From Maribacter sp. MMG018 (GTDB lineage: Bacteria > Bacteroidota > Bacteroidia > Flavobacteriales > Flavobacteriaceae): a stretch of 64,000 nt of DNA. The notes under the pieces are model-generated. The model was not told where the DNA came from. It was given only the letters and a program-made list of their open reading frames with translations, and did not search any database. The stretch lies in the NCBI RefSeq assembly GCF_018100785.1, contig NZ_JAGJEC010000002.1, forward strand, positions 62,001 through 126,000. The letters run 5' to 3'. Position 1 is the first letter of the stretch; the number at the start of each line of letters is the position of its first letter. A program made the translations under genes and the position numbers. Positions 61,463 through 64,000 of this stretch are shown here, one piece after another.

Positions 61463-62047
61463 TTAACCGTGTACCTTTTCCGATTTGCTAAGGTTTTCCA
61501 TAATTTTTGCCTCATAGGTAAGAAGGTCTTGCCATTTTTTGTCCACTTCTTCGCGGTCACCGTATTGTCTGGCAAATTTTAAGAACATGGTATAATGGCC
61601 AGCTTCGCTGATCATTAGTTTATGGTAGAAATCAGCCAATTTTTTGTCCGTTAATTCTTCTGAGAGTAATCTAAAACGTTCACAACTTCTAGCTTCTATA
61701 AGGGCGGCGTACAAGAGTCTATGAACCAGTTGGGTTGTTCTGCTGCCTCCTTTAGGAAAAAACTTTACGAGCTCTAATACATATTCATCTTTGCGGTCAC
61801 GTCCCAATTTTTTGCCACGGGCAATAATTAGGTCATGTACCATTTTAAAATGCCCCATTTCTTCTCTAGAAAGGGCTACCATTTCTTCAACCAGTTCTGT
61901 GTATTCAGGAAATGAGACTATTAACGAAATAGCGGTACTTGCCGCCTTTTGTTCGCAATAGGCATGGTCGGTAAGTATTTCATCAATGTTTTTTTCTACG
62001 ATATTTACCCATCTTGGGTCCGTGGGAAGTTTTAGGCCTAACATCAT
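61463..62047 (-). CDS. miaE: tRNA-(ms2io6A)-hydroxylase
   Basis: 194 residues, a ferritin-like di-iron protein. DPRWVNIVEKNIDEILTDHA leads to EQKAASTAISLI with the first Glu, EEMGHFKMVHDL with the ExxH motif, LIEARSCERF and SEAGHYTMFLKFARQYGD with the second ExxH. It hydroxylates 2-methylthio-N6-isopentenyladenosine at position 37 of tRNA. The arrangement is convergent with ppk1; single gene. Confidence 0.93.
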   Translation of the reverse strand: MMLGLKLPTDPRWVNIVEKNIDEILTDHAYCEQKAASTAISLIVSFPEYTELVEEMVALSREEMGHFKMVHDLIIARGKKLGRDRKDEYVLELVKFFPKGGSRTTQLVHRLLYAALIEARSCERFRLLSEELTDKKLADFYHKLMISEAGHYTMFLKFARQYGDREEVDKKWQDLLTYEAKIMENLSKSEKVHG

Positions 62048-62115: not shown

Positions 62116-62123
62116 TATTTTTG
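62116..62123 (+). promoter_or_regulatory. Candidate -7 element of the ebo operon
   Basis: TATTTTTG matches TAnnTTTG and lies 28 bases before the preferred ATG at 62151. It covers the TTG at 62121, so that upstream start is ruled out if this promoter is used. Confidence 0.55.
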
Positions 62124-62150
62124 AAAAGGAGATTATATAATAGATACTTA

Positions 62151-62999
62151 ATGCAGGTTAGCGAACAGATAAAAGAAGCCATAGGGTCACAGTCAAATGA
62201 GGATGCCATATTATGGTTAGATGAGAAAACTTCTAAATTGGAAACCGATAAGAACGTAAGGGATCTTTACATGTCTTACAGTTTGTTGGCATCTAAATTC
62301 GATAAAAACATACCATTAAAATTTGAGGGGGAGGTAAGTGGGGCGTTGTCCTATTTAGATTCCCATAATGCAAATTTATTGGAGGCTGCCAGAATTTATC
62401 TTCTTGCAAAAGTATTGGAGATCGATGATGGGTTTTATGGCCCTAAGGTTGCCAATATTATTCAAGTAGCAGATACTACAGAACTAGAAACATTTTTAAA
62501 GTTCTTGGTGCTTTTACCAGAACCCGAAACGTATAAATCTACGGCGGTGGAGGCGCTTAGAACCAATATTTCTGTAATTTTTGATGCCATTACCTTGAAC
62601 AATCCATATCCGGCGAAGTATTTTAATGATCAGCAATGGAACCAAATGTATTTAAAGGCGGCCTTCATGGAAAGGGATCTTTCACAGATCCAATCGGTCG
62701 ACGAAAGGGCTAATGCCGATCTGGCGCGTATTATTTCTGATTACGCACATGAAAGGTGGGCGGCTTCAAGAAAGATAGACCCCATGTTCTGGAGACCGGT
62801 ATCTAAATTTTTGAACGATACCCTGTTAAAGGATATGCAAAGGTTATTGGGTAGCGAAGATGTATATGAGAATAGGGCGGGGGTCTTGTGCTGTTATTAT
62901 TCAGAGAATAAAGAAGCATTAAAATTATTGGAACCCTACAATAATTTAAAGACAGAAATAGAAACAAACAAGTTAACTTGGAACACCTTAAAGAAATAA
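62151..62999 (+). CDS. eboA: EboA domain protein
   Basis: 282 residues from ATG 62151 (MQVSEQIKEAIG); the longer frame begins at a TTG inside the promoter element. The protein is almost all helix and has no signal peptide. The DAITLNNPYPAKYFNDQQWN segment near 160 followed by LKAAFMERDLSQI is the recognisable EboA signature. EboA is the first gene of the ebo (EDB) cluster found in Bacteroidota, cyanobacteria and a few algae; in scytonemin-producing cyanobacteria the cluster is needed to move a metabolite precursor to the periplasm. Its own activity is unknown. It is 3 bp before eboB. Confidence 0.85.
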   Translation: MQVSEQIKEAIGSQSNEDAILWLDEKTSKLETDKNVRDLYMSYSLLASKFDKNIPLKFEGEVSGALSYLDSHNANLLEAARIYLLAKVLEIDDGFYGPKVANIIQVADTTELETFLKFLVLLPEPETYKSTAVEALRTNISVIFDAITLNNPYPAKYFNDQQWNQMYLKAAFMERDLSQIQSVDERANADLARIISDYAHERWAASRKIDPMFWRPVSKFLNDTLLKDMQRLLGSEDVYENRAGVLCCYYSENKEALKLLEPYNNLKTEIETNKLTWNTLKK

Positions 63000-63002
63000 A
63001 TA

Positions 63003-63911
63003 ATGGAAGATAAGATGATGATAATTGATCCACACGTTCATATGACATCAAGAACGACCGATGACTATGAAGCTATGCAAAAAGCTGGTGTGGTAGCTGT
63101 AATAGAACCTTCTTTTTGGCTTGGCCAGCCAAGAACACAAGTAGGGTCTTTCCAAGATTACTTTAGTAGTTTGGTAGGTTGGGAGCCTTTTAGGGCCAGT
63201 CAATTTGGTATTAAGCATTACTGCACGATTGGTTTAAACTCTAAAGAAGCCAATAACGAAGCTTTGGCAGAGCAGGTGGTAGAGTTGTTGCCCCTGTATT
63301 TGCATAAAGAAAATGTAGTGGCCATTGGTGAGATCGGTTATGATGATCAAACACCTGCAGAAGACAAATATTTTAGAATGCAGTTAGATTTGGCCAAAGA
63401 GCTGAATATGACGGTACAGGTACATACACCTCACAGGGATAAAAAAGCGGGAACCATCAAAAGTATGGAGGTTTGTTTAGAACATGGTCTTGACCCCTCG
63501 AATGTAATTATTGACCATAACAATGAAGAAACGGTAAAAGAAGTTCTGGACCGTGGATTTATTGCGGCGTTTACCATATATCCAAAAACAAAAATGGGGA
63601 ACGAACGTATGGTCGAAGTGGTAAAAAAATTCGGTAGCACCAATATTATCGTTGATAGTTCGGCAGATTGGGGAGTTAGTGATCCATTGGCAGTACCAAA
63701 AACAGCCTCTTTAATGTTGAAAAGGGGAATTGCGAAAGAAGATGTTGTAAAAACATGTTACCAAAATGCATTGGATGCCTTTAGTAAAAATGGGAAAATG
63801 AAAGAGGAACATTGGTTGAATCCAGGTGGCATAGACCAATCACAATTATTTAATGATAATAGCGTTTTAAGAGGGCAAACACCTCGAATTGATTCCGACC
63901 AAATCACCTAA
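63003..63911 (+). CDS. eboB: EboB, TatD-like metal-dependent hydrolase
   Basis: 302 residues (an ATG at 63015 would also be possible). The TatD/amidohydrolase barrel has metal ligands in MIIDPHVHMTSRT, VVAIGEIGYDDQTP with the bridging Glu, VQVHTPHRDK, VIIDHNNEE and the final Asp in IIVDSSADWGVSDP. The sequence KAGVVAVIEPSFWLGQP is typical of EboB rather than of housekeeping TatD. It is between eboA (3 bp) and eboC (1 bp), so the three are one operon. The substrate is unknown. Confidence 0.88.
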   Translation: MEDKMMIIDPHVHMTSRTTDDYEAMQKAGVVAVIEPSFWLGQPRTQVGSFQDYFSSLVGWEPFRASQFGIKHYCTIGLNSKEANNEALAEQVVELLPLYLHKENVVAIGEIGYDDQTPAEDKYFRMQLDLAKELNMTVQVHTPHRDKKAGTIKSMEVCLEHGLDPSNVIIDHNNEETVKEVLDRGFIAAFTIYPKTKMGNERMVEVVKKFGSTNIIVDSSADWGVSDPLAVPKTASLMLKRGIAKEDVVKTCYQNALDAFSKNGKMKEEHWLNPGGIDQSQLFNDNSVLRGQTPRIDSDQIT

Positions 63912-63912
63912 C

Positions 63913-64000
63913 ATGATGAAAAAAATCATGGGTTTTGCTAGACTGGCAAGACCTGCGAACCTGCCAACGGCGGCTGCCGATATTTTGGCAGGTATCACTA
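63913..64000 (+). CDS. eboC: EboC, UbiA-like prenyltransferase, 5' end only
   Basis: The frame opens one base after the eboB stop with two ATGs (MMKKIMGFARLARPANLPTA) and is cut at the window edge after 29 residues. The ARLARPANLPTAAADILAG start is that of EboC, a UbiA-superfamily membrane prenyltransferase (RPxNxPT...ADxLAG). It should continue with about nine membrane helices and DxxxD motifs outside the window. Position after eboA and eboB supports the assignment. Confidence 0.8.
   Translation, partial: MMKKIMGFARLARPANLPTAAADILAGIT

Follow-up and report, generated by a model that had tools for sequence, protein, structure and literature searches.

An ebo operon of the ABCDEF type in Maribacter sp. 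MMG018 and the probably co-transcribed TMEM220 gene behind it

The window analysed here, 64,000 nucleotides of the forward strand of Maribacter sp. MMG018 (assembly GCF_018100785.1, contig NZ_JAGJEC010000002.1; G000:C10:62001-126000), ends within a run of closely packed genes, which we followed into the downstream stretch L002 of the same contig (G000:C10:122001-142000; window position = L002 position + 60000). A sequence-only reading of the window had proposed an ebo cluster cut by its right edge, with EboA, a TatD-like EboB and the start of a UbiA-like EboC, and all three are borne out by the profile scores given below. Past the edge, the open reading frames and profile matches of L002 place eboD, eboE and eboF directly downstream of eboC, with all six genes in the order eboA-B-C-D-E-F on the + strand (Table 1); it is confirmed that the window ends inside a complete eboA-F operon of the ABCDEF type of Bacteroidota. 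EboC, EboE and the EboA domain were assigned by NCBIfam cut-offs; for EboB, EboD and EboF, which have no listed model specific to ebo, the Pfam family and the place in the gene order were used. Membership in the ebo group is seen in the presence of all six genes, in their order, on one strand and at tight spacing. The gaps measure 3 bp (A-B), 1 or 4 bp (B-C), 4 bp (C-D), 7 bp (D-E) and 1 bp (E-F), and the 1-3 bp spacing read earlier is right if the first of the two in-frame ATGs of eboC is used. No Rfam family matched L002 1400-9200 at the gathering threshold. This copy is an ordinary member of an already described cluster, as the ABCDEF type has been reported in Bacteroidota, and the eustigmatophyte and bacterial operons of that type have the same six genes in the same order on one strand (PMC5133447). 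The label 'EDB', which the earlier reading had also used, comes from Pseudomonas fluorescens and stands for 'edible' (PMC6282210).

Table 1. Features at the ebo locus, in window numbering unless L002 is named
Feature	Position	Strand	Product	Description
miaE-like gene	61463..62047	-		Divergent upstream neighbour, boundary and not operon member; PF06175 149 bits, cut-off 27
TAnnTTTG (-7-like) box	62116..62123	+		Read in the sequence, upstream of eboA
eboA	62151..62999 (L002 2151-2999)	+	282 aa	All-helical; NF035938
eboB	63003..63911 (L002 3003-3911)	+	302 aa	TatD-like metal-dependent hydrolase; PF01026
eboC	63913/63916 to G000:C10:126812 (L002 4812); window holds 63913..64000	+		UbiA-like prenyltransferase; NF035940; in-frame ATGs at 63913 (1 bp after eboB) and 63916 (4 bp)
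eboD	L002 4817-5977	+		PF01761, PF24621
eboE	L002 5985-7178	+		NF035939
eboF	L002 7180-8553	+		PF01663
TMEM220 gene	L002 8560-8913 (68560-68913)		117 aa	PF15071

To place the operon among its relatives we drew 149 genomes of the host's family, for which at least 90% completeness was asked, and found EboC over the cut-off in 26. In the surroundings of all 26, matches to A-F follow in order on one strand, eboA being only a partial match in L049 and L051 and eboE in L043. Two Arenibacter loci from a separate search (L147, L153) have eboA about 8 kb away from eboB, a split already noted in that genus (PMC5133447). Of the 26 family loci, 21 have a miaE gene a short way upstream of eboA, and in the other five (L032, L047, L049, L051 and L053) the surroundings of the cluster showed neither miaE nor ppk nor dnaX. 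The TAnnTTTG box occurs within 140 nt upstream of eboA at 18/26 loci, that of the host among them, where shuffled sequence would give 3.2, and upstream of eboD at 9/26, where it would give 3.5. The longer pattern TTG-N17-23-TAnnTTTG precedes eboA in only four of the 26, and in the window no TTG is seen by eye at 17-23 nt from the box. Of the promoter claimed earlier, the box itself is present and its function as the eboA promoter is likely.

The first two proteins of the operon are conserved to very different degrees, with a mean column identity over the same 26 loci of 56% for EboA and 85% for EboB (58% for EboC, 67% for EboD). EboA clears the EboA domain model NF035938 (151.8 bits, cut-off 50) and falls below the cut-off of the full-length subfamily NF035937 (173 bits, below 320). 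Its AlphaFold2 model (pLDDT 94.6) is nearly all helix; in the PDB no fold matched it at E<=0.001, the best hit (0.15) being a loose likeness to helical repeats of the armadillo/HEAT type, and its profile found no PDB sequence at E<=1. EboB scores 68 bits with PF01026 (gathering cut-off 27) and 43 bits with the strict TatD model TIGR00010 (below the cut-off of 206), therefore we call it TatD-like only. Its sole PDB match at E<=1e-8 is AF_1765 (3guw, E 3e-24). D9, H11, H13, E110, H141, H172 and D222 are invariant in 26/26 EboB sequences and also in a wider set of 23, six of which are shared with the 26; we take these residues to form the metal-binding site that a TatD/amidohydrolase-type enzyme should have. 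Even cyanobacterial EboB proteins, among the best 80 of 562 loci, are 71-78% identical to this one. The protein is 90% identical to EboB of Arenibacter sp. 6A1 and 85% to that of a Maribacter, and DnaX is nearer to Maribacter, its closest relative among 14 named loci being a Maribacter protein (L157) with 91% identity over 361 aa. The high conservation and the Arenibacter likeness of EboB could possibly reflect transfer or strong constraint. A further cluster on a contig filed under Candidatus Neomarinimicrobiota (L164) has ebo A-F plus TMEM220 in the order typical of Flavobacteriaceae, with an 80% identical EboB, and is either a transfer or a misbinned contig.

Read at full length beyond the window edge, EboC scores 373 bits with NF035940 (cut-off 250) and 76 bits with PF01040 (cut-off 34.2), so the frame from the first ATG does encode a UbiA-fold protein, as had been predicted. 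Its assignment to the UbiA-family prenyltransferases is supported by these profiles and the activity is a predicted one. Counting from the second ATG, D68xxD71xxxD75, Y60 and R149 are invariant in 26 sequences. The Asp-rich motif and Tyr60 probably correspond to the motif and Tyr56 of UbiA-297, a flavobacterial EboC and farnesyltransferase in vitro (PMC9235831). Since Arg145 of UbiA-297 could be replaced by alanine without loss (PMC9235831), the conserved Arg149 adds no support here, and only the Asp motif and the tyrosine count. EboC proteins of Maribacter, Zobellia and Algoriphagus, of the same family and with the same motif and tyrosine, farnesylate 8-hydroxyquinoline-2-carboxylic acid in vitro; UbiA-297 farnesylates 8-HQA as well as quinaldic acid but yielded nothing with phenols or catechols, and the acceptors named are aromatic compounds, not cyclitols, which counts against the reading that we prefer below (PMC9235831). 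These assays were made on relatives, whereas the present EboC is known from its sequence. The sequence-only reading had called the Bacteroidota metabolite unknown, which stands for the native product and overlooks this farnesylation, by which the matter is already partly addressed (PMC9235831).

EboD matches PF01761 (121 bits) and PF24621 (114 bits) and stays below the cut-off of the strict AroB model TIGR01357 (229 bits, below 305), with which the separate AroB of the genome scores 337.9 bits. It does match NF004852, the NCBIfam model for 3-dehydroquinate synthase (557 bits, cut-off 333), a point against an entirely new substrate. In the PDB it is matched best by 3-dehydroquinate synthases, with ValA (4p53) also among the matches; EboD belongs to the same superfamily as these, with the metal-ligand positions kept. 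Compared with the genome's own AroB, the E, H, H metal positions are retained but two active-site segments differ, with RPLDFGH in place of ILNYGH and EFREHLGG in place of YDKKNSHG, the roles of these active-site and metal-ligand residues in EboD being assumed by us. On this comparison EboD appears to be related to the sugar phosphate cyclases and to differ from the housekeeping AroB. The segment differences agree with the reported placement of EboD in its own clade near the sedoheptulose 7-phosphate cyclases, and sedoheptulose 7-phosphate as its substrate would rest on that work (PMC5133447); fingerprint residues of the sugar phosphate cyclases are mentioned in PMC4426668. No eboD was found at the locus in a Leeuwenhoekiella MAG (L155), in Nostoc mirabile (L207) or in L084 (G318), where the gene may be dispensable or located elsewhere, and a Leeuwenhoekiella cluster lacking it has been reported before (PMC5133447). 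Therefore, the cyclitol may not be obligatory. EboE clears NF035939 (475 bits, cut-off 250) and has no Pfam match, and EboF matches PF01663 with 221 bits.

Six bp after eboF starts a gene for a protein of TMEM220, a conserved four-helix membrane family that is also found in animals (PF15071, 76.8 bits, cut-off 27). Is it a part of the operon, or only a neighbour carried along by lineage? To the second answer we give a little less than an even chance, and the distribution of the gene bears on it from both sides. In the family draw TMEM220 is found in 35 of the 149 genomes, with 26/26 of those carrying EboC against 9/123 of those without it (Fisher p 9e-22, uncorrected for descent, which leaves room for the lineage reading). 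Among the 26, the gene stands after eboF in 20, one of them at a distance of 3.2 kb (L033), 0.02-0.3 kb before eboA in four (G002, G033, G045, G137), and unlinked to ebo in two (G016, G095). The gap to eboF is at most 26 nt in 18/20, and in five loci the two genes overlap by 4 nt, which counts against a mere neighbour; the gene behind eboF in the host is probably co-transcribed. Linkage in several different arrangements argues in the same direction, as TMEM220 also precedes eboE in G461 (order T-E-F-A-B-C-D, where T is TMEM220) and lies convergent after eboF in L183 and L189.

A wider draw of 345 genomes from the phylum (EboC in 29, TMEM220 in 44, both in 22) gives TMEM220 in 22/29 genomes with EboC against 22/316 without, an odds ratio of 42, again uncorrected for descent. 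Two controls were run, MiaE (14/29 against 102/316; odds ratio 2.0, p 0.10) and rhodopsin (9/29 against 45/316; odds ratio 2.7, p 0.03), so that miaE, itself a neighbour, has no comparable association with EboC. The co-occurrence extends over 10 of the 12 EboC-bearing families, and by their coordinates only 7/22 pairs lie within 10 kb of each other while 15/22 are not close together, which counts against passive carriage beside ebo. Seven of the 29 EboC genomes are without TMEM220 (G261, G306, G311, G350, G365, G393, G467); in family f24 it is missing from five of eight EboC genomes and present in 3/8. Of the best 80 EboB loci (of 562), 24 have TMEM220 inside the fetched stretch, Cyclobacterium, Pleomorphovibrio and Hymenobacter among them, many of the stretches ending at contig ends. 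From the same 80 we chose 40 loci for a survey of whole genomes and searched 39 (all but L221), setting aside L147-L168 (22 loci), L187 and a further 17, many of which lie on short contigs; in five of the 39 (L197, L203, L204, L211, L224) only EboA and/or EboB was found in the fetched stretch. TMEM220 is present in 15 of the 18 Bacteroidota, the three without it being Rufibacter, Rhodocytophaga and Flavobacterium supellecticarium, and was found in 0/21 EboB-bearing genomes from outside the phylum (16 cyanobacteria, 3 beta-proteobacteria, 1 planctomycete and 1 verrucomicrobium). The host thus differs from the 16 cyanobacteria searched in having the gene behind eboF. Since these 21 genomes do without it, TMEM220 is not part of the core ebo pathway and, given also its stand-alone copies, is at most a Bacteroidota accessory.

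These stand-alone copies speak for the lineage reading. In G029, G034 and G110, all EboC-negative, and in G016, which has ebo elsewhere, TMEM220 sits between miaE and dnaX without ebo, the site reading ppk/miaE-T-dnaX; the gene therefore adjoins miaE and dnaX with or without the operon, and either it is able to last without the operon or ebo came in next to it later. The opposite case is G095, where ebo is at the usual site and TMEM220 is gone from there, the sole copy being divergent (27% identity over 99 aa) and located elsewhere. We looked at the surroundings of TMEM220 in 30 chosen places, namely nine EboC-negative and two unlinked EboC-positive ones from the family draw and 19 from the phylum draw. 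Around 29 copies some neighbours recur: Gfo/Idh/MocA oxidoreductases at 3 loci, aldo/keto reductases and ThuA proteins at 4 each, and xylose-isomerase-like TIM barrels in two groups of 3. That some unlinked copies adjoin Gfo/Idh/MocA, TIM-barrel or aldo/keto-reductase genes again speaks for the lineage reading. In L118, L133 and L134 the unlinked TMEM220 is near genes for a Gfo/Idh/MocA oxidoreductase and a xylose-isomerase-like TIM barrel, and in L136, L140 and L142 near another TIM-barrel group. Such neighbours hint at a second role, or at sugar-like chemistry.

What would TMEM220 do in the operon, then? Its model (pLDDT 92.8) has helices at 3-25, 29-47, 54-70 and 85-116, and the residues invariant in 20 sequences (N25, D26, D28, W32, E89, R92, E93, G96) fall at the junction of helices 1 and 2 and in the early part of helix 4. 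By helix count these residues would lie on one face of the membrane, which the positive-inside rule would make the periplasmic one. No PDB fold matched at E<=0.001 (best 0.26, synaptogyrin), and the profile found nothing among PDB sequences at E<=1. The human protein, of the same family as the bacterial copy by profile, is Golgi-resident and its knock-down disturbs glycoprotein secretion (PMC6979480). We considered the described EboG as a possible identity and set it aside, as EboG is reported from clusters without eboA, a judgement made by its description (PMC5133447). The main text of PMC5133447 is without the string 'TMEM', whereas here the TMEM220 gene follows eboF; among the matches listed in the open-licence literature, preprints and supplements excluded, no mention of a TMEM220-ebo link was found, nor anything on TMEM220 together with flavobacteria. 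We give even odds to TMEM220 being a seventh, Bacteroidota-specific working part, which would share a transcript with eboF, be retained in ebo-bearing genomes also where the two are not linked, and use N25/D26/D28 and E89/R92/E93, on one face of the inner membrane, to act there on the prenylated product.

The product of the ebo cluster as a whole is probably a small molecule linked to a prenyl chain and made at the inner membrane; an isoprenoid-cyclitol product has been proposed (PMC5133447). Our preferred reading, at a probability of roughly 0.5, is that the complete eboA-F operon with its probably co-transcribed TMEM220 makes, tailors and prenylates a cyclitol, the resulting amphiphile either aiding export or being the product. 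The analysis itself shows which genes are present and in what order, their families, the conserved residues and the co-occurrence with TMEM220, whereas all of the chemistry, the part in export in Maribacter sp. MMG018 and the role of TMEM220 are what we infer, as follows. EboD would make a C7 cyclitol, and the xylose-isomerase-like EboE, the metal hydrolase EboB and the phosphodiesterase-like EboF would tailor this cyclitol or a partner of it. In the inner membrane EboC would then attach a farnesyl-type chain to the acceptor so formed, and the amphiphile would help small aromatic molecules to reach the periplasm, or would itself be the exported product, on which TMEM220 would act at the inner membrane in Bacteroidota. 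A functional parallel is Nostoc punctiforme, where ebo genes homologous to those found here are needed for scytonemin: when eboA, eboB, eboC, eboE or eboF is deleted singly, the scytonemin monomer stays behind in the cytoplasm (PMC6282210). The export role stated earlier for scytonemin producers matches these mutants, and the prenyl carrier suggested with it is itself a published hypothesis (PMC6282210).

The same mutants lend weight to a reading that we regard as possible though clearly short of even odds, in which the enzymes of eboA-F assist transport by supplying an exporter that already exists with a lipid cofactor, as in the published prenyl-glycolipid carrier model: in all five the monomer fails to leave the cytoplasm (PMC6282210). 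Also in its favour, EboA and EboE are labelled 'metabolite traffic protein' by NCBIfam, although the name may have been taken from the Nostoc study. Against it, no lipid-conjugated scytonemin monomer was found in that study (PMC6282210).

That the operon makes a meroterpenoid (a farnesylated quinoline-type aromatic), a conventional secondary metabolite without any wider part in export, we consider less likely than not. The tryptophan dioxygenase family opens the kynurenine route to quinolines, and the host genome has one match to it over the cut-off, which covers only model positions 15-144 of 346, but none of the six ebo proteins nor TMEM220 matches a quinoline-pathway family among the NCBIfam/Pfam profiles. 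The acceptor range of UbiA-297 (PMC9235831) and a Pseudomonas fluorescens cluster that holds ebo genes and is needed to deter nematodes (PMC6282210) fit such a product, yet what was seen in Nostoc is a block in transport and not gene-specific intermediates (PMC6282210).

The ebo operon itself was already known, and in Nostoc it is tied to the transfer of a small molecule across the inner membrane (PMC6282210); the new part of the finding is the link with TMEM220. For the animal family, in which no report of a biochemical activity was found in PMC6979480, the bacterial protein may be a possible model. In Bacteroidota TMEM220 is a possible membrane step of ebo, and offers a testable handle on it.
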